From Alphaproteobacteria bacterium (GTDB taxonomy: Bacteria > Pseudomonadota > Alphaproteobacteria > Micropepsales > Micropepsaceae): a DNA stretch of 64,000 nt. Shown piece by piece: positions 8,399 through 18,420 of this stretch (positions are counted from its first letter, which is position 1; each line of letters opens with the position of its first letter). The notes under the pieces are model-generated. The model did no database searches. It had not been told where the DNA came from and worked only from the letters and a program-made list of their open reading frames with translations. Location: positions 62,001 through 126,000 of the forward strand of contig JADHVO010000004.1 of assembly GCA_016783965.1 (NCBI GenBank), written 5' to 3'. A program made the position numbers and the translations under genes.

Positions 8399-9943
8399 CT
8401 ACTCTTCTGCGTGCACGTCGGCGCGTTCGCGGGTTTTGGCGAATTTGATGTTGGGGTGGCGGTCGGCGACGTAGCCTAGCTCCCACTGGCTTTTCGCGAG
8501 GAACACCGGCGCGCCGTCGCGGTCGCTGGCCATGCCACCGCGGTTGGCGGCCATGAACTTCTCCATGTCGGCGTCGCTGCCGCTGATCCAGCGGGCGGTG
8601 TCGAAGGGCGCGGGCTCGAGATCGGCGTCGAGGCCGTATTCGGCTCTGAGGCGCGACTTCAAGACGTCGAGCTGGAGCGGGCCGACGACGCCGACGATCC
8701 AGTTGGCGCCGATCTGGGGCTTGAACACCTGCGTGACGCCCTCCTCCGCGAGGCTTTCCAGCGCACGGGTGAGGTGCTTCTGCTTCATCGGATCGCCGAG
8801 GCGCACGCGGCTGAGGATTTCGGGCGCGAAGTTCGGGATGCCGGTGAAGACGACGTCGCCGGACTCCGACAGCGTGTCGCCGACGCGCAGCACGCCGTGG
8901 TTCGGGATGCCGATGATGTCGCCGGGCCAGGCCTCGTCGACCGTCTCGCGCTCCTGCGCGAAGAACAGGATCGGGTTGTGGATGCCGATGGATTTGTGCG
9001 TGCCGGACTGCGTGAGCTTCATGCCGCGGCGGAATTTGCCCGAGGCGAGGCGCAGGAAGGCGACGCGGTCGCGGTGGTTGGGATCCATGTTGGCCTGGAC
9101 CTTGAACACGAAGCCGGTGACTTCGTTGTCCACGGGTTCGACGGTCTTCGATTTCGTGGCAGCGGGGCCGGGCGGCGGGGCGTTCTGCGCCAGCGCGGAG
9201 AGAAGCTCGCGCACGCCGAAATTCTTGAGCGCGGAGCCGAAGAAGACCGGCGACTGGTGGCCCTCCGTATAGGTGCCGTGATCGAAGCGCGGCAGGCCGG
9301 CGCGGGCGAGCTCGACGTCCTCGTCCAGCCTGGCGCGCTCCTCGGCGCTCAGCATGTCGAGGGTGTTGTCGTCGAACGCGTTGAACTTTTCCGAGTAGAG
9401 ATCGATGGTGCCGCGGAAGTTGAGGCCCATGCCGACGGGCCAGACCATCGGCGCACATTCGATCTGGAGCTGGTCGGCGAGCTCGTCCAGCAGTTCGAGC
9501 GGGTCGCGGGCCTCGCGGTCCATCTTGTTGACGAAGGTCATGATCGGGATGTCGCGCAGGCGGCAGACCTCGAACAGCTTGCGGGTCTGCGCCTCGATGC
9601 CCTTGGCGGCGTCGATGACCATGACGGCGGAGTCGGCGGCGGTGAGCGTGCGGTAGGTGTCTTCGGAGAAATCCTCGTGGCCCGGCGTGTCGAGCAGGTT
9701 GAAGACCGCGTTCTCGAACTCGAAGGTCATCACGGCGGAGGTGACGGAGATGCCGCGCTCCTGCTCGATCTTCATCCAATCGGACTTGGCGCGGCGTGCC
9801 TCGCCGCGCGCCTTGACCCGGCCGGCAGCGTGGATGGCGCCGCCGAGCAGCAGCAGGTGCTCGGTCAGCGTGGTCTTGCCGGCGTCGGGGTGCGAGATGA
9901 TCGCGAACGTACGGCGGCGTTTGGCTTCGTGGGCGAGGGTCAT
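8399..9943 (-). CDS. prfC: Peptide chain release factor 3
   Basis: This 514-residue GTPase recycles RF1/RF2 from the ribosome after termination. It has the P-loop SHPDAGKTTLTEHLL, the switch region EQERGISVTSAVMTFE, DTPGHEDFSEDTYRTL and NKMDREARDP, in the order and length expected of RF3 (usually about 520-530 residues). Domain II starts near residue 280 (NEVTGFVFKVQANMDP) and an RF3-type C-terminal domain follows. The ATG start with GAGGG upstream on the minus strand is clear. It stands next to a DUF433/DUF5615 module on the same strand. Confidence 0.95.
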   Translation of the reverse strand: MTLAHEAKRRRTFAIISHPDAGKTTLTEHLLLLGGAIHAAGRVKARGEARRAKSDWMKIEQERGISVTSAVMTFEFENAVFNLLDTPGHEDFSEDTYRTLTAADSAVMVIDAAKGIEAQTRKLFEVCRLRDIPIMTFVNKMDREARDPLELLDELADQLQIECAPMVWPVGMGLNFRGTIDLYSEKFNAFDDNTLDMLSAEERARLDEDVELARAGLPRFDHGTYTEGHQSPVFFGSALKNFGVRELLSALAQNAPPPGPAATKSKTVEPVDNEVTGFVFKVQANMDPNHRDRVAFLRLASGKFRRGMKLTQSGTHKSIGIHNPILFFAQERETVDEAWPGDIIGIPNHGVLRVGDTLSESGDVVFTGIPNFAPEILSRVRLGDPMKQKHLTRALESLAEEGVTQVFKPQIGANWIVGVVGPLQLDVLKSRLRAEYGLDADLEPAPFDTARWISGSDADMEKFMAANRGGMASDRDGAPVFLAKSQWELGYVADRHPNIKFAKTRERADVHAEE

Positions 9944-9977
9944 GGCGGGGCGGGGATAAAGGAAGACTGCCCGATTG

Positions 9978-10334
9978 TCACGATTGCAGAATCTGGGTGC
10001 GGATGCCGTCCTGCTCGATCACGGTAAAGCGGCGGTGGAGCTCGTCGCCTTCGGATAAAATTAGCCCCAAAAGTCTGGTCCATTTGAAAGGCCAACGCTG
10101 GGCGTTCATCCGCAGAAGAACAACGCCTGCCGATTTGAACCCGTCCCGGAACACTAGTTCGCCGAAGTCCTTGTCTTCCGTGAGCATAAGGCGATTTTCA
10201 GCGGCTGCGGCTTCCAGAATCTGACGATCGGGGACTTGCCGGGCGGCTTCTGCCGCATACGCCACGTCGTGTCCTGCACCGCGGAGTTCTCGAACTATCT
10301 CGCTATGAATATTCTCGTCGGCAAACCAGCGCAT
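9978..10334 (-). CDS. DUF5615 PIN-like protein (putative toxin)
   Basis: The 118-residue product starts MRWFADENIHSEIVRELR and has GHDVAYAAEAARQVPD, a LTEDKDFGELVF motif and GVVLLRM. This is the DUF5615 pattern, a PIN-like fold with acidic residues (DEN, EDKDFG) that could bind metal. It follows a DUF433 gene by 4 nt; DUF433-DUF5615 pairs are widely found and predicted to form toxin-antitoxin modules. Toxicity is inferred from pairing, not shown. Confidence 0.78.
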   Translation of the reverse strand: MRWFADENIHSEIVRELRGAGHDVAYAAEAARQVPDRQILEAAAAENRLMLTEDKDFGELVFRDGFKSAGVVLLRMNAQRWPFKWTRLLGLILSEGDELHRRFTVIEQDGIRTQILQS

Positions 10335-10338
10335 CCGG

Positions 10339-10554
10339 CTATTGCGCCGCGGTGCGCGCCATGTAGTCGTCTGCGAACGCGCGGGCCGCTGCGATGTCCT
10401 CCGCTTTCAGGCGAGGATGCGCCGCAAGTATCTCCATTTCGGTCATACCCTCGGCCAACTCATGCATGACGTGCTCGACCGTCAACCGCGTGCCCTTGAT
10501 CACGGGTTTGCCAAGCATCACGTCAGGATTGAACTCGATGCGTTCGTGTTTCAT
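10339..10554 (-). CDS. DUF433 protein (putative antitoxin)
   Basis: This 71-residue protein has the DUF433 signature NPDVMLGKPVIKGTRLTVEHV followed by a short helix-turn-helix-like region and AHPRLKAEDIAAARAFADDY. It lies directly upstream of the DUF5615 gene on the same strand (4-nt gap), the usual order for this predicted toxin-antitoxin pair. It probably binds DNA and its partner; this is family-level inference. A TATGAT hexamer lies upstream of its start. Confidence 0.8.
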   Translation of the reverse strand: MKHERIEFNPDVMLGKPVIKGTRLTVEHVMHELAEGMTEMEILAAHPRLKAEDIAAARAFADDYMARTAAQ

Positions 10555-10605
10555 GGACCGATCATATCACACCTATGTGCATGCGGCACCGCCCCCTCAC
10601 CCCGG

Positions 10606-10634
10606 CCCTCTCCCCCGCTTCGCGGGGGCGAGGG
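10606..10634. repeat. GC-rich hairpin in divergent intergenic region
   Basis: A 13-bp stem with one mismatch (CCCTCTCCCCCGC / GCGGGGGCGAGGG, loop TTC) followed on the plus strand by AGTTTCTTT. It lies between the DUF433 gene and the divergent secreted-protein gene, so it is more likely a dispersed palindrome than a true gene-end terminator. Confidence 0.5.
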
Positions 10635-10669
10635 AGTTTCTTTATAGTGTGATGCGCGATGGAGTGGGG

Positions 10670-11209
10670 ATGGCGATGCGGCTGATTGTGTTGGCGATGG
10701 TTCTGCTGGCTGCCCGCCCTGCCCTTGCGGGCATGCCGGCGGATTGTTCGAAGGGGCCTGTTCCGGACGGGGCGGTGCACGGGACCGTCAACGGGAAGCC
10801 CTTCGTGCCGCAGGAGGCGACGCTGGGCTTCACCAAGGACGGGATGGTGGTGAACGACGTGCACCTCGACCGCTATGTGCTGTCGATCCAGACAGACGGC
10901 ATCTTCAACGCGCTCTCGGTCGACATGATGGTGCCGGGCGGGAAGAAGCCGGACGGGCGCACCTTCCGCGTGCTGCCCGTCGACGACATCGACAAGCAGC
11001 CCGCGGCCGCGGAGGGCACGCCGGAGGTGCAGGGCTGGGACCTGGAGCAGGAGAACGCCGGCGTGAAGACCAGCTTCACGGAAGATACGGCATCGATCCA
11101 GGTGGTGTTCGGCATGCGCAAGGGCAACGTGATGCCGGGGAAAATCCACATGTGCGTGCCGGGCGTCAGCGCCGAGATCGTGGGAAGTTTCTCCGCGACG
11201 ATGCAGTGA
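10670..11209 (+). CDS. Secreted small protein, DCSKGP-family paralog A
   Basis: The 179-residue product has a signal peptide (MRLIVLAMVLLAARPALA) and a mature region opening with ADCSKGPVPDGAVHGTVNGKPF. It shares a scaffold with the products at 12544-13062 and 13114-13659: an N-terminal DCS(K/T)GP, a central PDGxTF, then VQGW, and a C-terminal VVFGxRxGNxMPxxIHxC(V/I)P. Two conserved cysteines probably form a disulfide. No known function comes to mind. The ATG at 10670 has GGAG 5 nt upstream; other in-frame ATGs at 10652 and 10676 are possible. Confidence 0.72.
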   Translation: MAMRLIVLAMVLLAARPALAGMPADCSKGPVPDGAVHGTVNGKPFVPQEATLGFTKDGMVVNDVHLDRYVLSIQTDGIFNALSVDMMVPGGKKPDGRTFRVLPVDDIDKQPAAAEGTPEVQGWDLEQENAGVKTSFTEDTASIQVVFGMRKGNVMPGKIHMCVPGVSAEIVGSFSATMQ

Positions 11210-11222
11210 TCGGCCCCTGCTC

Positions 11223-11897
11223 TCAGGGCAGCGGGGCCGTGAACTGGCCGATGTCCGACAGGCCGAGTGCGCGCTCGATGGCGGCGACGCGCGTGCGGAT
11301 GTGTTCGAAGCCGTCCTTGCCGACCTCCTGCTGCTCGATGTCCTCGAACTGGTCGCCCAGGTCGTCGAGTTCGGAAGCCGACAGAGCTTCCTTCCAGCCG
11401 GGGAACACAATCGTGTCCTCGCGCGCGGCGTGATGCTCGTACATCAGCTCGAAACGGTCGAGCGCGTCGGCGAGACGGGTGTCTCGCTTGCCGAGTTTCG
11501 TCGCGCTGTCGATGTAGGCGTTGATGGCACGGCCCCGCGCGTGCTGGGCCTTGAGGACATCGATGTAGGATGCGGCCTCACCACCGGCCTTCGCGACGGC
11601 GGGAAAGATGTGCGCCTCCTCCAGCTTCTGCTCGTGATAGCCCTCGCCGAACTGGCGGAAGATGGCACAGGCCTGGTTGAGGGCGGCGATATCAAATGTC
11701 TGCGCGGCACGGATGCGTTGGGCGCTGGCGCGATAGATGAGCAGCAGGCGACGCAGGATGCCGTGCTCGCGCATCAGATCCTCCACCGCGCCGACATCCT
11801 TGGCGTCGACATAGCCGGCGCAGGTGGCGAGCGGGACCGCCGCGGCGGCAACCGCGGAAACCGCGAGGATTCCGCGGCGATTGACGATCTGGTTCAT
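11223..11897 (-). CDS. Hemerythrin-like HHE-domain protein, exported
   Basis: The 224-residue protein has an N-terminal RRGILAVSAVAAAAVPLATCAG segment that looks like an export signal with a possible Tat motif and lipobox. The body is a hemerythrin/HHE four-helix bundle: LMREHGILRRLL, YHEQKLEEAHIFP, LKAQHARGRAI and MYEHHAAREDTIVFP supply the His/Glu ligands for a diiron or similar metal site. Roles in oxygen or redox sensing or iron handling are known for the fold, but none is specific here. It sits between members of the DCSKGP paralog family. Confidence 0.82.
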   Translation of the reverse strand: MNQIVNRRGILAVSAVAAAAVPLATCAGYVDAKDVGAVEDLMREHGILRRLLLIYRASAQRIRAAQTFDIAALNQACAIFRQFGEGYHEQKLEEAHIFPAVAKAGGEAASYIDVLKAQHARGRAINAYIDSATKLGKRDTRLADALDRFELMYEHHAAREDTIVFPGWKEALSASELDDLGDQFEDIEQQEVGKDGFEHIRTRVAAIERALGLSDIGQFTAPLP

Positions 11898-11946
11898 GGC
11901 AAGCCTCCCACGCCTGAAATGAACCAGACCACCAATCGTTTCTGCG

Positions 11947-12402
11947 TCACAGCACTTTCAGCATAAGGCAGGCCGGGTTCTCAGGGCTCCATAGCTCGGG
12001 AAATTCGTCGATGGCGACGAAGCCCATGGCCTCGTAGAAGGCGCGGGTCTTCGCGTAGCCGGGATCGGCGTCGCGCGACGACAGCGTCTTCACGGTGAGG
12101 AAACGGATGCCGTTCGCACGCGCGTGGGCGGCGGCCTGTTCCATCAGGGCGCGGCCGGTACCGTGGCGGTGCAGCGCAGGCTTCACGCCCATGACATGGA
12201 CCTCGAAGACATGCGGCGTGGGTTGGCCCAGCGCGATGAAGCCCAGCAGGCGGCCATCGTCATAAGCGGCCCACATGGGCATCGTTTCGACGCCGCGGAT
12301 GTAAGCCTCGTTGGAAGCGGGGATGCCGAACCATTTCGGCAATGCGGCAAGAACCTCGGCGCAGACGGCGCCCTTGGCGGTGGAGACTTCGACGATGTGC
12401 AT
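11947..12402 (-). CDS. GNAT-family N-acetyltransferase
   Basis: This 151-residue protein shows the GNAT core: RLLGFIALG (beta4), VFEVHVMGVKPALHRHGTGRALMEQAAAHAR with the acetyl-CoA pyrophosphate loop HRHGTGRA, then FLTVKTLS and YAKTRAFYEAMGF. It should transfer an acetyl group from acetyl-CoA to an unknown amine. It is transcribed away from the paralog at 12544, so 12403-12543 is a shared divergent control region with no further gene. Confidence 0.88.
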   Translation of the reverse strand: MHIVEVSTAKGAVCAEVLAALPKWFGIPASNEAYIRGVETMPMWAAYDDGRLLGFIALGQPTPHVFEVHVMGVKPALHRHGTGRALMEQAAAHARANGIRFLTVKTLSSRDADPGYAKTRAFYEAMGFVAIDEFPELWSPENPACLMLKVL

Positions 12403-12543
12403 GACAGGTTTCCGTTGAATCGAACGAAAGGGGCCGCGCGAACGCGGGTCTCAAGAGTGCGGATGGTGTGATCGCTGCCTGTCGAAGCGACATTAGCACG
12501 GTGCTAGCGTGACCGCGAAGGGGCTTTCGATTTGGAGAGCCAG

Positions 12544-13062
12544 ATGCGATTTCATTCGACGATCTTCGCCGCGTTTGTCCTTGGCAGCGCGCCGGCGTTC
12601 GCCGCGCCGGTGGATTGCAGCAAGGGGCCGATCCCCGCAGGACCGGCCAAAGGCACGCTGAACGGGGTGCCCTTCACGGCCGATCTCGTCAGGCTCGATC
12701 CCATCGAGCAGCGCACGCAGGGTCCCGCCACGTTCGACGTGTGGCACATCTACCTGAGCGACAAGGCGGGATCGAAGTTCGATTTCACCGTCATTACCGT
12801 GAAAGGTAAGCAGCCCGACGGGCATACCTTTGTTTCCGATGTCACCGGCAACGGACCGGAGGCCGGTCCCGGATCGCACGAGGTGCAAGGCTGGGAGATG
12901 ACGGCCAAGGGCAACGAGGTCGGGTTCTACGAGGTGAACGACGCCTCGTTGCAGGCCGCGTTCGGCCACCGGACCGGCAATGCGATGCCGGTTTCGCTCC
13001 ACTTCTGCGTGCCGTCCAAGAAGACCGATGTCGCCGGTGCCATCACAGTGCCTCTCAAATAG
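12544..13062 (+). CDS. Secreted small protein, DCSKGP-family paralog B
   Basis: The 172-residue product has a signal peptide ending in PAFA and a mature part beginning APVDCSKGPIPAGPAKGTLNG. It matches the paralog scaffold: the WHIYLSDKAGSKFDF strand, KQPDGHTF, EVQGWEM, and a terminal AFGHRTGNAMPVSLHFCVP. GGAG at 12534-12537 supports the ATG at 12544. Paralog C starts 51 nt after its stop and is closest to it in sequence, suggesting tandem duplication. No function is recognised. Confidence 0.72.
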   Translation: MRFHSTIFAAFVLGSAPAFAAPVDCSKGPIPAGPAKGTLNGVPFTADLVRLDPIEQRTQGPATFDVWHIYLSDKAGSKFDFTVITVKGKQPDGHTFVSDVTGNGPEAGPGSHEVQGWEMTAKGNEVGFYEVNDASLQAAFGHRTGNAMPVSLHFCVPSKKTDVAGAITVPLK

Positions 13063-13113
13063 GCGGGCCGTGTGCTAGCCTTTCCCAAAGACTCATAGGG
13101 GGAGCTAAGAGTC

Positions 13114-13659
13114 ATGCGGGCGGGAATTGCACTTGGCGTTGTAACGGCAGCATTGATGACGGCGGCGCCGGCGTTCGGCGCGGCGGCGGTGCGGGATTGC
13201 AGCACGGGGCCGATCTGGACCGGTGACGCTTCGGGCTTCATCGACAACACGCCGTACAAGATCGAAGGCGTGGCGCATGCGCCGGTGTCGAGCTATCCGC
13301 AGGGGCGCAACCGCTACGATCAGTATCACCTGTATCTGAGCAGCAAGGCGGGGCAGATGTTCGAGATCATCCTGGTCACAAAGAGCGGCGAGAGGCCCGA
13401 CGGGACCACGATGACGATGAGCCTGCACGGCAACGGCAGCGAGGCGGCGCCGGGTGCGCCCAACGTCCAGTTCTGGTCGCTTGAGGACAAGACGAAGAAA
13501 CTCAAGATCATGAACTACAGCGCGAGCGATGCGACGATGCAGGTCGTGTTCGGAAAGCGCAGCGGCGTGAACCTGCCGGTGCAGATCCATTTCTGCATCC
13601 CGTCCAAGCGCACGGAGATCGCCGGCCACTTCACGGTGAACCTGTCGAACCCGAGCTAG
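13114..13659 (+). CDS. Secreted small protein, DCSKGP-family paralog C
   Basis: The 181-residue product has a signal peptide ending in APAFG and a mature domain starting VRDCSTGPIWTG. It shares with paralog B the YDQYHLYLSSKAGQMFEI strand, RPDGTTMTM and a terminal VVFGKRSGVNLPVQIHFCIP. GGGGGAG before the ATG supports the start. Its end overlaps the convergent DUF1491 gene by 4 nt. Probably periplasmic or secreted; function unknown. Confidence 0.72.
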   Translation: MRAGIALGVVTAALMTAAPAFGAAAVRDCSTGPIWTGDASGFIDNTPYKIEGVAHAPVSSYPQGRNRYDQYHLYLSSKAGQMFEIILVTKSGERPDGTTMTMSLHGNGSEAAPGAPNVQFWSLEDKTKKLKIMNYSASDATMQVVFGKRSGVNLPVQIHFCIPSKRTEIAGHFTVNLSNPS

Positions 13660-13994
13660 ACGACCGGTTCGTCGACGAAGGCGCGGCCCTCGCGGTCCTC
13701 GATCTCGACGATCCAGACGTCGGGATCGAACTTCACCTGGCGATCGAAGAAGGCGCGCGTTTTCTCCTCGTCGGCGGAGTCGCCGAGCGGCTTGACCCAG
13801 ACGAGGTCGCCCTCGGCGCCGCGCCGCGCCTGGTCGAGCACGAGGCTGGTGCCGTCGAGGCGGTTGACGCGGAGAAACACCGCACCGGACTCCTCCGAAC
13901 CCTTGCGCACGACATAGGCCGGTGCGCCCGCGACTTCGGCGCGCCGGATGAGCGCGCGGACGAAGATGCCGGCCTTGAGGCGGGGAACGGTCAT
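13656..13994 (-). CDS. DUF1491 family protein
   Basis: The 112-residue protein starts MTVPRLKAGIFVRALIRRAE and ends with VDEPVV, with internal DGTSLVLDQARRGAEGD and DPDVWIVEIEDREGR. This is the alphaproteobacterial DUF1491 pattern, small conserved proteins without known function. It overlaps the convergent paralog C by 4 nt. Nothing recognisable lies between its start and the EF-G-like gene at 14223 (228 nt). Confidence 0.75.
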   Translation of the reverse strand: MTVPRLKAGIFVRALIRRAEVAGAPAYVVRKGSEESGAVFLRVNRLDGTSLVLDQARRGAEGDLVWVKPLGDSADEEKTRAFFDRQVKFDPDVWIVEIEDREGRAFVDEPVV

Positions 13995-14222
13995 GGCCGC
14001 ATTGTGTCACGCGCAGCGCGGACGCGCCAACGCGCGGTCACTTCAGCAGCGGCATGCGACCTCGCCGTCTTCACCGAGGACGCCGACGTTGAACTGATAC
14101 GGGAGGGATCGCGGCGCCAGCGTGGCCGCAAGCTCCCCCGGGGGTCACCAAGGGGTGCAAATCGGCCAGCGTACGATTATGCAGGCCTTAGGCATCGGGG
14201 TCGCCCGGGTTAGACTGGCGAG

Positions 14223-15125
14223 ATGCCGGATGCGCCCTACCCCCTGGTGGAAGTCGCGATTGAGCCCCAGAACGAGGTTGCGGCGGCGCAATTGCGCGAG
14301 GCGTTGCCGCAGCTTGCGGCAGCCGATCCGTCGTTCACCTTCGACCACGACCCGGAATGCGGGCAAACCGTGCTCAAGGGCGCGAGCGAGGCGCACCTCG
14401 AGCAGAAGGTGCTGATGCTCGAGCGAGTCTACGAGATCGCAGTGGAAATAGGTGCGCCGCAGATAGCCTATCGCGAGACATTGGTGCGGCCAGCAACCAT
14501 CAAATACATCCACAAGAAGCAGACAGGTGGTTCCGGCCAGTTCGCCGAGGTCACCATCGCGTTCGAGCCACTGCCGGCTGGAAGTGGTTTCAAATTCGAC
14601 AATGCCGTCGCGGGAGACGCGATCCCAGAAGCGCTCGTGCCCGCGGTGGAACGCGGACTGCGGGCTCAAAAGGAGTCCGGTCTGCTCGCCGGCTTTCCGG
14701 TGATCGACTTCAAGGCGACGCTCATCGACGGCAAGTACCACGAGATGGATTCGAACCCGCTTGCGTTCGACATCGCGGCGCGGGGAGCTTTCCGCGAGCT
14801 GGCGCAACTGGACGTCGTCGTTCCACTGGAACCGATCATGGCGCTGGAAGTGGCAACGCCTGAGGACTTCCTTGGCGGCGTGATCGGCGACCTGAACTCC
14901 CGGAGAGGAACCGTTGCAGGCACGGAGAGCGGCATAGACGGATTCGAAATCGTTACAGCCGAGGTGCCGCTCGTAAACCTGTTCGGCTATGGCCGGGCGC
15001 TGCTCGCGATGACGGGAGGGCGGGGGCGCTTCACCATGTCGTTCGCCCGCTATGCGCTTGCGCCATTGCCCGACTCCGATCCGGACCCGCGATTTCCTGG
15101 CGCGATGGGCATGCGGGTCGCCTGA
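14223..15125 (+). CDS. EF-G-like protein with domains III-V only (no GTPase domain)
   Basis: The 300-residue product aligns in order with the C-terminal half of elongation factor G. Domain III is residues about 1-80, opening PYPLVEVAIEPQNE and containing CGQTVLKGASEAHLE. Domain IV is about 85-205, with YIHKKQTGGSGQFAEV, AVERGLRAQKESGLLAGFPV and DGKYHEMDSN. Domain V is about 208-290, with PIMALEVATPEDFLGGVIGDLNSRRG and VPLVNLFGY. No P-loop, switch or NKxD motif exists upstream in any frame of the 228-nt gap. The frame is intact and begins at the domain II/III boundary, which argues against simple decay, but the ribosome binding site is weak. It might act on ribosomes without GTP, or be a well-preserved fragment. 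Confidence 0.82.
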   Translation: MPDAPYPLVEVAIEPQNEVAAAQLREALPQLAAADPSFTFDHDPECGQTVLKGASEAHLEQKVLMLERVYEIAVEIGAPQIAYRETLVRPATIKYIHKKQTGGSGQFAEVTIAFEPLPAGSGFKFDNAVAGDAIPEALVPAVERGLRAQKESGLLAGFPVIDFKATLIDGKYHEMDSNPLAFDIAARGAFRELAQLDVVVPLEPIMALEVATPEDFLGGVIGDLNSRRGTVAGTESGIDGFEIVTAEVPLVNLFGYGRALLAMTGGRGRFTMSFARYALAPLPDSDPDPRFPGAMGMRVA

Positions 15126-15137
15126 TCAGGCCGCGCC

Positions 15138-16595
15138 TCAGTCGTGGTGGTCGTCGTGCGGGTGGTCGTCGCCATGGTGATGGTGATCGTCGCCGCCGAC
15201 GCCGACACCAATGCCGATGGTAATGTTAGGACCGCCGCCCTCGTCCTTCGGAGGATGATAGTCCGACGGGCACGCCTTGAGGCCGTTGAGGCCTTCCAGC
15301 TCGTCGCGCAATGAAGCTTCTTCCACCTTGAGGTCGGCGAGAGCCTCACCCGAAGCGCTGCGTTCCTGCTCCGTCACGGTCGCAAGTTTGCCTTCATCGT
15401 CCTCGATCGCTTTGGCGACGTTGTCGCCATCATCGCAGGGCGGAAGGCCGGCTCTATCGCTCTTGTTCGGCGGCGGCGTCGCGCCGCCCGGACAGGGTGC
15501 GGCCAGCTTCTTCTTCAGTTCGCCGATCTTGTCTTCCAGCTCGGCTTGCTGGACTTCCAACGCGTGCTGCTTCGTTTCATCGTCGTCGAGCACCTTCTTC
15601 GCGGCCTTGGCCTTGTCGCTGTCGGCGCCGAATTTCGTCTCCATATCGGCGACATGATTGCGATCTTCGGTGATCACGCCGGAGACGCGCAAACGGTCTT
15701 CCTGGTTCTTCCTGAGCGCCGCCTCCGCCGCGTCGAGGTCCGCCTGGACCTGGGGATCGGCACAGGGCGGCTTGGCCCCTTCACCGCCGCCGGCAGGGGG
15801 CGTTTCGGTTGTCGCCGGGCAGGGATCCAGTGCTTCCAGCTCGGAGATCTGGATTTCCAGCTGCGATGCCTGGCCGTAGAGATCAATCCATTGCCCCTGA
15901 TCCTTCTTCACCGCGTCGCCATAGGTTTTGACGCGGTCGAGGTCGCCGTCGGCAACGGCCTTGTCGTACTTGGCCCGGTCGGATGCCATGACACCCTCAA
16001 GCACCTCCAGACGCTTTTCGATTCGCGCGAGATCCGCCCGTGCGGTCTCGATTTTCGCCGGCGTGTCCTTGTCGGCGCACCCGGTGCCGCGCCCCGCAAT
16101 GGCGATAGGCTGCTGCCCCGGACATGGATTGGGCATGGTGATCGCCTTCGAGCGGCGTTTCATCTCGGCCAGCAGCGCCCGGACATCGTGCCAGACTTGA
16201 CCAGATGCCTTGACGTTGCTCTTCATGTGCAAGGCGGCCGCGGCGTCATCCTTGGTGAAGGGATGCGGGCCGTAGTCGCTCATGTACGCGGCGGCCGCAT
16301 CGGCAAACGCGCTGAACGCTTCCGAGACAGCCTTGGCGGCCGCATCCTTTTGTTCCTTCGTGCCGCAGTCGCGAATCGCGCCCGCTATTGCGATTGCGAT
16401 GCGCAGCTTTTCGTAGAGCGGCTGAAGCCTGGCGTAGTCCTGCGCCTCGGGAGAGTCAGCGGCCTTTGACGGTCCGCCGAAGGGAGGCTGAAATTTATCG
16501 TCGGCCTTCGCCTGCGTCAGCGCGAATGCGCCGGACACAACAAGGATTACAAAAACCGCGCGGGCGAGTGAGAGCGTGCCAGTCATCGACACCAC
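15138..16595 (-). CDS. Secreted helical protein with Cys-Pro segments and His-rich tail
   Basis: The 485-residue product has a signal peptide ending in AKA, then alternating helical, Glu/Lys/Ala-rich stretches likely to form coiled coils (about residues 170-265, 280-370 and 400-450) separated by short Pro/Cys linkers of the type PCPG, PCPATTET, PPCADPQ and PPCDDG. The last 17 residues hold eight histidines among aspartates, a probable divalent-metal-binding tail, after a Gly/Val strand (ITIGIGVGVGG). No family is recognised. A periplasmic metal-binding or structural role is inference. An in-frame ATG at 16583 could also be the start. Confidence 0.65.
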   Translation of the reverse strand: MVSMTGTLSLARAVFVILVVSGAFALTQAKADDKFQPPFGGPSKAADSPEAQDYARLQPLYEKLRIAIAIAGAIRDCGTKEQKDAAAKAVSEAFSAFADAAAAYMSDYGPHPFTKDDAAAALHMKSNVKASGQVWHDVRALLAEMKRRSKAITMPNPCPGQQPIAIAGRGTGCADKDTPAKIETARADLARIEKRLEVLEGVMASDRAKYDKAVADGDLDRVKTYGDAVKKDQGQWIDLYGQASQLEIQISELEALDPCPATTETPPAGGGEGAKPPCADPQVQADLDAAEAALRKNQEDRLRVSGVITEDRNHVADMETKFGADSDKAKAAKKVLDDDETKQHALEVQQAELEDKIGELKKKLAAPCPGGATPPPNKSDRAGLPPCDDGDNVAKAIEDDEGKLATVTEQERSASGEALADLKVEEASLRDELEGLNGLKACPSDYHPPKDEGGGPNITIGIGVGVGGDDHHHHGDDHPHDDHHD

Positions 16596-16698: not shown

Positions 16699-18420
16699 TC
16701 AGGCCGCGCCCTTGAAGGGGATGATCTTGGCTTCGCGCAGGTGCAGCGCCTGGCCGTTCTCGTCCACAGCGGCGAAGGGGAGACGGATGCGCACCGTGGT
16801 GCCCTCGCCAAGCTCGGATTCGATGGTCGCCTCGCCGCCGTGCAGCGCCGACAGCGCCTTGACGAGCGCAAGGCCGAGGCCCGTGCCTTCCTTGGCGCGG
16901 ACGTGTTCGCCTTCGACCTGCTCGAACGGCTTGCCGAGGCGCTCGAGGTCTTTCGCGGAGATGCCGACGCCGGTGTCGGTGACGCTGATCTCGATGCCGC
17001 GCTCGTCGCGCCGCGCCCGGATGCCGACCCCGCCACCGCGCGGTGTGTACTTGATGGCGTTGGTGAGCAGGTTGATCAGCATCTGCTTGATCGCGCGCTT
17101 GTCGGCGAAGATGGTCGCGGCGCCCGGCAGGATGTCGAGGCGCAGGGCGATGCCGCCGCGTTCGGCCTGGATCTTCACGAAGCGCAGCGCGCTCTCGGCG
17201 GTGTCGTCGAGCGGGAAGCACTCCTCGAACAGGTCAAGCTTGCCGGCCTCGATCTTCGACATGTCGAGGACGGAATTGATGAGCTCCAGCAGGTGGCCGC
17301 CCGATTCGTGGATGAGGCGGGAGTATTCGAGGTACTTGGCGCTGCCGACCGGGCCGAACATCTCATGCGTCATCACCTCGGAGAAGCCGAGGATGGCGTT
17401 CAACGGCGTGCGCAGCTCGTGGCTCATATTGGCGAGGAAGGAGGACTTGGCGCGGTTAGCGCTTTCCGCCTGGTCGCGCGCCTCGATCAGCTCGCGCTCC
17501 TGCGCCTTGCGCTCGGTGATGTCGCGGGTGACGGCGACGATGTCGGTGCCCTGCCCGGTTGCCGACGGCGCGGGGCGGCAGCGGATCTCGGCCCAGACAT
17601 GCGAGCCGTCGCGGCGCTTGAGGCGAACCTCGGCGGATGCGGCGCGGCCGTAATAGGCGGATTCCATGAAGGCGGCCTGCATCGCCTTCAGGTCGTCGTG
17701 ATGGACCAAGGACGCGGGCGCGCGGCCGAGAAGTTCCTGTGGCGGCAGGTCGAGCAATGTGTAAGCGGCCGGGCTCGCAAAGCGAATGCGGCCGTCGGAG
17801 GAGTGGCGCGTGATCAGGTCCATCGCGTTGTCGGCGAGGAACCGGTACATCGCGGCGCCCTCGGCGGCGGCCATGTCGGCGGCGCGCTGGCGATCCTGCG
17901 CGGCAGCGGCAACCAGCGCGGCCTGCACCACCGCGGCGAGCACGGAGATGGTGTAGACCTCCCACGCCGGGACCGGCAGGCGCGAGGCCGGCAACAGGCC
18001 GAGCGCGCCGAACGCCGCGACGGCGGCGAGCGCCAGGGCGGCCGCGATGGCGGCGCGGATGACGGCGGGCCGGCCGCCGGAAAGCGCGGCCTCGGCCGGA
18101 ACGAGCGCGAACCACACCACCAGCGGCGACAGCACGCCGCCGGTGAGCGCGGCGAGGTATCCGATCATGGCGGCGAAGATCGCGAGCGCCGTGGTTTCGA
18201 GGATCGGCAGCGGAATGCGGGTGAAACCGAGCAGCGCCAGGAATGCCGGCGCCATCAGGCCGGCGATGGCCAGTCCTTCCGCGGCATCGGGACGGCCGAC
18301 GAAGGAGATGAAACCCAGGCCCAGGACCGCGCCCACGATCGCCTTCGACGCCTGCACGGAGACAAAGAGGCGCCGAAGCGCCTTTCCGTCCGTGTACGAA
18401 GTATCGTCGTTAACAGCCAT
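16699..18420 (-). CDS. DivJ-like membrane PAS histidine kinase
   Basis: The 573-residue sensor kinase has a membrane region of five or six hydrophobic segments (about residues 25-173), a PAS domain (about 187-300) ending in VTRDITERK, a HisKA domain with phospho-acceptor in MSHELRTPLNAILGFSE (about residue 330), and a HATPase with NLLTNAIKYTP, DTGVGIS and GTGLGLALVK. Architecture and length match the DivJ/PleC group that controls DivK and, through it, CtrA in Alphaproteobacteria; DivJ assignment is by architecture only. It is divergent from a second PAS kinase at 18610. Confidence 0.82.
   Translation of the reverse strand: MAVNDDTSYTDGKALRRLFVSVQASKAIVGAVLGLGFISFVGRPDAAEGLAIAGLMAPAFLALLGFTRIPLPILETTALAIFAAMIGYLAALTGGVLSPLVVWFALVPAEAALSGGRPAVIRAAIAAALALAAVAAFGALGLLPASRLPVPAWEVYTISVLAAVVQAALVAAAAQDRQRAADMAAAEGAAMYRFLADNAMDLITRHSSDGRIRFASPAAYTLLDLPPQELLGRAPASLVHHDDLKAMQAAFMESAYYGRAASAEVRLKRRDGSHVWAEIRCRPAPSATGQGTDIVAVTRDITERKAQERELIEARDQAESANRAKSSFLANMSHELRTPLNAILGFSEVMTHEMFGPVGSAKYLEYSRLIHESGGHLLELINSVLDMSKIEAGKLDLFEECFPLDDTAESALRFVKIQAERGGIALRLDILPGAATIFADKRAIKQMLINLLTNAIKYTPRGGGVGIRARRDERGIEISVTDTGVGISAKDLERLGKPFEQVEGEHVRAKEGTGLGLALVKALSALHGGEATIESELGEGTTVRIRLPFAAVDENGQALHLREAKIIPFKGAA

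Follow-up and report, generated by a model that had tools for sequence, protein, structure and literature searches.

The window, the 64,000-nucleotide stretch of DNA analysed here, contains between positions 14223 and 15125 an open reading frame that corresponds to domains III, IV and V of elongation factor G (EF-G). It raises the question whether the encoded protein is maintained without the GTPase (G) domain, completes a split EF-G or is the decaying remnant of a complete paralog. All three readings had been offered in an initial sequence-only reading of the locus, which leaned towards a maintained protein that could, as one option, occupy the ribosomal A site.

Architecture of the stand-alone gene

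The gene (14223..15125, forward strand) runs from ATG to TGA and encodes 300 amino acids, as delineated by its open frame, its translation, Pfam and the match to the EF-G of its own genome; the translation is free of internal stops. Domain III (residues 5–77, 14235..14453; PF14492, EFG_III, 4.7e-16), domain IV (residues 79–194, 14457..14804; PF03764, EFG_IV, 7.4e-39) and domain V (residues 202–281, 14826..15065; PF00679, EFG_C, 7.5e-22) follow one another on the forward strand, each with a Pfam match above the curated cut-off, and the same scan detects neither GTP_EFTU nor domain II in the protein. An in-frame TAG four codons before the ATG (14211..14213, forward strand) limits the stop-to-stop frame to 303 aa, which forces the start to the boundary between domains II and III and leaves no room for an N-terminal extension. 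The intact 300-residue frame beginning at this boundary, as claimed from the letters alone, is thus confirmed by the open frame, by Pfam and by the alignment with T. thermophilus EF-G, which starts at residue 403. The conserved blocks named in the same reading are likewise all present in the translation, namely HLE (residues 58–60), the GxGQF loop as GGSGQF (102–107), ESGLLAG (151–157) and GDLNSRRG (222–229).

When the full-length EF-G of the same genome was searched against positions 10000–16000 of the window by tblastn, domains III–V were recovered (EF-G residues 410–685, 59% identity, E 2e-100) together with a second, chance match (E 9.1). The reported absence of a G-domain remnant upstream therefore holds, with no trace of the G domain or of domain II detectable in this interval. 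Upstream of 14223 neither an obvious ribosome-binding site nor, in a scan for the sigma-70 consensus only, a promoter-like site was found. With 287.9 bits against a cut-off of 659.4 (TIGR00484), the protein reaches less than half of the score curated for EF-G, and 313 against 583 for NF009381; its bits stay far under the curated cut-offs of all EF-G, EF-G2 and Tet models listed. An AF2 model calculated from four sequences adopts the EF-G III–V fold with a mean pLDDT of 82.5, and nearly all of the 50 chains listed by Foldseek are EF-Gs (TM by query length 0.65–0.89). The model adds nothing on function.

Residues 284–300 (15072..15122, forward strand) form a separate tail of non-EF-G sequence, which the initial reading had overlooked. 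It is delimited by the alignments, by comparison with full-length EF-G tails and by pLDDT values below 50, and it carries the motif DPxFPGAxxxR (residues 288–298, 15084-15116, forward strand). Full-length EF-Gs end in a VPQxIADEVKAKYA-type sequence instead, and DPxFPGAxxxR occurs in none of those among the matches listed. In S. aureus EF-G, the matching C-terminal helix is assigned to domain IV and touches domain V (PMC3352095). This helix, which packs on domains IV and V, is missing from the window protein and is replaced by the motif. The tail is predicted to be disordered in a model whose input held no other tail-bearing sequence, and a conserved disordered end of this kind may resemble a linear binding motif. 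Searches for the tail as a known module gave only partial matches in its own genome (E 0.29 or worse), and a profile of distal domain V plus tail matched 53 PDB sequences, all EF-Gs and related factors, in the domain V part only (positions up to 35 of 51).

Distribution of the family

Among 69 genomes of the genus, searched with all matches at E up to 0.001 taken in, stand-alone copies are present in three (that of the window, G071 and G003), all as intact open frames. From stop to stop the G071 copy comprises 316 aa and the G003 copy 338 aa, with 54% and 55% identity to the window protein, respectively. A fourth copy with an open frame of 326 was found in G357, a member of another family, so that the stop-to-stop frames span 303–338 aa. 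All four start at or just before domain III, lack the G domain and end in DPxFPGAxxxR, which is followed at once by V, or in G357 after one extra residue. For the G071, G003 and G357 copies the start was set at the ATG nearest domain III, with GTG/TTG starts existing upstream; the G003 and G357 assemblies are fragmented (about 270 and 510 contigs). Two further candidates were discarded: a 311-aa frame in G008 belongs to a gene of EF-G2 type that runs off its contig, and a match in G186 running beyond an EF-G stop was judged on reading to be due to chance. Since draft assemblies often lose fusA itself (10 of the 69 genomes gave no match whatever), absence of the stand-alone gene is soft. The genome G070 encodes a 703-aa EF-G (L067, G070:C227) with only 43% identity to the window protein; this EF-G groups with those of distant lineages and is either a transferred paralog or a sign of a mis-binned contig.

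Beyond the genus, a whole-protein search of 289 genomes of the class gave no further stand-alone frame among the matches listed. A profile of the last 51 residues was run against 385 class genomes; among the matches listed, only the window protein and the G357 copy extend into the tail, the others, nearly all full-length EF-Gs, ending at profile position 33–38. A second class search (384 genomes) returned G357 only, down to 1e-16, and a search of 76 genomes of the order gave no match down to 1e-15. Within the order of G357 the gene is found in one of four genomes, G357 itself. In 398 genomes of the phylum, 33 had a match to the tail-type profile down to 1e-13, and the tail was reached by that of the window alone. 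These draws overlap and sample part of the class and phylum, and a tail-based profile could miss stand-alone copies without a tail; with four copies seen, the family looks rare.

A phage or plasmid origin was rejected. The window protein matches 44 of 50,697 records in the 'phages' set, none of them reaching 60% identity; in the 12 listed the match extends no further than query residue 277, and three of these records carry annotations as whole-gene elongation factor G of bacterial origin or as fusA2 variants. The matches listed are taken for bacterial fusA in phage-labelled records. In the 'plasmids' set 278 records match the whole protein, all below 60%, and the 15 listed end at residue 277. 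A 51-aa query of distal domain V and tail found nothing there; it also missed the ordinary EF-Gs and carries little weight. Pattern searches gave four matches without any relative in viral_contigs, and 53 matches with three relatives, all full-length distant EF-Gs, in genome_contigs.

The locus and its neighbours

The gene lies between a DUF1491 gene (13656..13994, reverse strand) and a PAS histidine kinase gene (HK1; 16699..18420, reverse strand), both identified by Pfam and synteny and used as context only. The G071 copy occupies the same locus, between DUF1491 and the PAS histidine kinase with a second kinase next to it. It is the only stand-alone copy in 21 genus loci around DUF1491; the other 20 have no match, and no full-length paralog was seen at any of them. 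Between the window and G071 the HK1 proteins are 83% and the stand-alone proteins 54% identical, which, together with the shared locus, suggests that the gene has been kept since their common ancestor. In a tree of HK1 from 20 loci and the window, the window stands beside the pair G071 and G073 (trio 85/64, pair 100/97). The simplest reading of these relationships would be presence in the ancestor of all three followed by clean loss in G073. Ten gene-less loci, including that of G073, hold no convincing remnant, the best match (E 0.048) lying inside the span of the second kinase. The patchy distribution and the absence from G073, the sister of G071 by HK1, show the stand-alone gene to be dispensable.

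The two remaining copies lie elsewhere, that of G003 (L033 6286-7182) near an MFS transporter and that of G357 flanked by a thioredoxin-like gene on one side and a sensor kinase/response regulator pair on the other, as named from the translations. A functional link with DUF1491 and the two kinases was rejected, as these are old members of the locus and the neighbours in G003 and G357 differ. The same applies to the RF3-like gene prfC (8402-10018, reverse strand), about 4 kb from the window gene: it is also found near DUF1491 in the gene-less genomes G044, G058, G064 and G068, so its place is old in the genus and its closeness to the window gene probably coincidence. Two tandem genes (12532-13062 and 13114-13659, forward strand; 176 and 181 aa, no Pfam match) both hit the same weak relatives, which lie next to DUF1491 at five further loci of the genus. 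GC3 of the stand-alone gene is 0.76, compared with 0.88-0.90 in the DUF1491 and kinase genes. A 485-aa open frame with a His/Asp-rich C-terminus (15138-16595, reverse strand; no Pfam match) is without match in the 21 genus loci, has the same GC3 of 0.76 and is possibly a later insertion beside the stand-alone gene.

Conservation of domain IV and conversion by fusA

Identity between the window protein and the EF-G of its own genome amounts to 34 of 73 residues in domain III, 88 of 116 in domain IV and 40 of 80 in domain V. Retention of the positions shared by at least 95% of 68 canonical EF-G rows, some of them near-identical, follows the same pattern. In the window protein 23 of 39 are kept in domain III, 39 of 44 in domain IV and 28 of 40 in domain V; the corresponding numbers are 26, 43 and 29 for the G003 copy and 20, 34 and 27 for the G071 copy. 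All three copies of the genus thus retain domain IV against faster change of III and V. The rule is not universal, judging from the G357 copy, which keeps domain V (34 of 40) better than IV (28 of 44; III, 16 of 39). Within domain IV, His173 (His573 in T. thermophilus by alignment) and the loop residues Gly102 and Gly105 are kept in all four copies. Three of the four lack Gly103 of this loop, and three lack Arg261 of domain V, the equivalent of which (T. thermophilus 660) is a contact to the sarcin-ricin loop. In the G071 copy (L060 8251-9147), which has diverged furthest among those of the genus, the domain IV loop is changed from QTGG to AEGQ.

A second point overlooked by the initial reading is recombination of the family with fusA. 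Over codons 75–224, the G003 copy differs from the EF-G of its own genome at only 0.7, 2.7 and 24.7% of first, second and third codon positions. In the codons preceding this tract the values are 23, 16 and 47%, and in those following it 34, 28 and 63%. The canonical EF-Gs of G003 and G081 differ over the same tract by 13, 5 and 49%. Codons 75–224 are read here as a tract converted by the resident fusA, in which synonymous changes have accumulated since. An assembly collapse was rejected for this tract, copy and fusA being too different.

The pattern bears on whether the protein still works at the ribosome. A maintained protein with a non-ribosomal task, in which domains III–V serve as a decoy or adaptor for an EF-G-directed factor such as a modifying enzyme, an inhibitor or a chaperone, or as an RNA or protein scaffold with the tail as effector, has a real, if minor, chance of being correct. 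It would accommodate the loss of the GTPase, the new conserved tail modelled as disordered and the fast change of III and V, and it is physically possible, as FusB binds EF-G III–V with an affinity comparable to that for whole EF-G (PMC4725979, PMC3352095). However, retention of His173, Gly102 and Gly105 in all four copies and the overwriting of domain IV by fusA in G003 both point to a surface that touches the ribosome, and the varied gene neighbourhoods indicate no FusB-like partner.

The trees bear on the history of the family. Columns of domain III and distal domain V place the four copies on one side of a branch in a 30-row tree (92/82), on long branches and hence not decisively. In a wider flank tree of 75 rows the three genus copies group (90/80) and G357 is unplaced; attraction of the long branches may contribute to the one-family signal of the 30-row tree. 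Domain IV columns reject a single clade (p-AU 0.038 for three copies, 0.008 for four) and join the G003 copy to the EF-G of G003 (100/99). In the tree of the whole of III–V the G003 copy stands apart from the other two genus copies, as expected if one segment was overwritten. Independent truncations of fusA in each lineage, with the tail acquired by convergence or from a common source gene, are rather unlikely and, as a statement on history, would be compatible with any function. They would explain the domain IV placement of the G003 copy with its own EF-G, the position of the G357 copy outside the genus copies in the same columns and its closest similarity to an EF-G of its own family (49%). 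Against this, flank columns and tail unite the copies, and in G003 only codons 75–224 are near the own EF-G, which has the look of conversion into an existing gene. The true history may be a mix of transfer and conversion.

Selection on the stand-alone copies

The G003 tract and the EF-G of that genome are separated by 37 synonymous and 5 non-synonymous changes, giving an unsaturated dN/dS of 0.036 (bootstrap 0.009-0.076) for domain IV and the first part of V in this one copy. Under drift of the stand-alone copy, roughly half of the differences would be unselected and dN/dS would tend towards 0.5; the low value is therefore the cleanest evidence of function. Between the window and G071, dN/dS is 0.26 (bootstrap 95% range 0.16-0.40) over domain IV and early V and 0.37 (0.23-0.56) outside this span, values that are indicative only, since dS exceeds 1.2 and is near saturation; synonymous sites are saturated in most pairs. 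The III and V flanks of the G071 copy, compared with its own EF-G, reach 0.91 (0.64-1.32), a sign of fast evolution by either relaxation or positive change. Stop codons are absent from all four copies, whereas 63 of 2000 neutrally simulated frames stayed open at about 64% identity and 9 of 2000 at 30%.

The initial reading had named a dN/dS near one, or a full-length paralog at the locus in close relatives, as the mark of a decaying fragment. The former is seen in the G071 flanks and contradicted by the window–G071 comparison and the G003 tract; the latter was not encountered at the 21 genus loci. That the window protein is maintained is well supported. Decay of a duplicated fusA fragment whose frame is still open by chance would fit the fast evolution with the high dN/dS of the G071 flanks, the patchy presence with apparent loss in G073 and the lower GC3. 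Yet four frames are intact, the copies have a new tail in common that is unseen on EF-G, window and G071 show dN/dS below 1 in both parts, and the converted G003 tract lies far from the value expected if one partner had decayed. Decay is accordingly disfavoured and quite improbable.

Search for a split partner

The host genome, assembled in 15 contigs, encodes a complete canonical EF-G (open frame 697), with 59% identical domains III–V, and an EF-G2-like protein (open frame 683). A scan with the GTP_EFTU family gave 12 matches, which by score, size and position are probably EF-G, the common translational GTPases with RF3 among them, EF-Tu-like pieces, EF-G2 and weak matches to other GTPases. 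The EF-Tu-like pieces are two short open frames of 162 and 134 aa, the second starting at the first bases of its contig, and on the same grounds are putative EF-Tu genes. None of the 12 matches is a lone G domain of the EF-G type, an assembly gap being possible. The suggestion that the window protein complements a split EF-G by pairing with a separate protein of G domain and domain II is thus unsupported; it agrees with the cut at the II/III boundary and is highly improbable in view of the missing partner, the complete EF-G in the same genome and the prfC gene nearby, which lies near DUF1491 in gene-less relatives too.

Proposed mode of action

There is about an even chance that the window protein is a maintained GTPase-less derivative of the EF-G of its own lineage that acts at the ribosome through domain IV. 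The architecture, the four-copy family, the tail, the better retention of domain IV in the three genus copies, the conversion tract and the selection on it are observed; from these we infer ribosome binding, the role of the tail and the physiological state as follows. A copy of EF-G domains III–V would have become a separate gene, lost the C-terminal helix and gained a short conserved tail. Domain IV would still dock at the decoding side of the A site and mimic the anticodon arm of a tRNA, and the surfaces of III and V that face the G domain in EF-G would be free to change because that domain is absent. The protein would bind the ribosome independently of GTP, probably weakly or only under certain conditions. 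The tail could act as a linear motif that recruits the protein to a partner or holds it there, and could supply the affinity lost along with the G domain. It would most likely occupy or clear the A site of ribosomes in a particular condition (stalled, starved or hibernating), and processive translocation would be unlikely. Occupancy of the A site without GTP hydrolysis, as suggested from the sequence at the outset, would fit the conservation pattern.

Stable ribosome binding of EF-G requires the G domain, and free III–V may consequently bind too weakly. Domains III–V are described as mimicking the aminoacyl-tRNA of the EF-Tu ternary complex (PMC3150367), by which a natural III–V protein would be a free tRNA mimic. 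The energy of translocation is argued to come largely from EF-G binding and less from hydrolysis (PMC12775393). More tentatively, and doubtful in its full extent, the family could represent a new class of GTPase-free A-site ligand for stalled or hibernating ribosomes, in which occasional conversion by fusA keeps domain IV compatible with the host ribosome and the tail brings in a partner, perhaps EF-Tu or a stress factor.

Relation to known systems

The protein has 59% sequence identity, the fold and the domain IV loop residues in common with domains III–V of its own EF-G. It differs from this EF-G in the lack of G domain, domain II and C-terminal helix, in the new tail and in the divergence of III and V. 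Tet(M)-type proteins and EF-G2 relatives have paralogous domains in common with it and retain the G domain. The S. aureus construct EF-GC3 (PDB 2mzw) has the same three domains with nearly the same cut point; this is an engineered laboratory construct used with FusB, whereas the window protein is the product of a natural gene, and S. aureus III–V form a stable fragment folded as in the whole protein (PMC4725979).

Bacteroides EF-G2 retains every domain, unlike the window protein with its missing G domain; the two would share an EF-G-type action that needs no GTP hydrolysis, which for the window protein is proposed here. This paralog was reported to translocate without GTPase activity (Han 2023, as cited in PMC12775393). 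Balon, a hibernation factor, is a translation-factor homologue that enters the A site during stress without codon reading or GTP hydrolysis; it belongs to the unrelated aeRF1 family, is found with EF-Tu-GDP and has a demonstrated function (PMC10901736), whereas a role of the window protein as hibernation or A-site occupancy factor is only proposed.

A natural EF-G without G domain was not found in the literature searched, which lay mostly outside subscription journals and is weak evidence of absence. One earlier survey demanded at least two thirds of the family length and an intact GTPase domain (PMC1780047) and another a GTP_EFTU match (PMC4342817); stand-alone III–V proteins would have dropped out of either. 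According to the former, conversion seems not to act between copies of EF-G (PMC1780047), a view at odds with the G003 tract, where fusA converted a paralog. Activity of domains III–V on the ribosome without a GTPase would bear on the old question of the role of GTP, and a natural protein that lacks the G domain and retains domain IV would allow this question to be asked with a selected rather than an engineered molecule.
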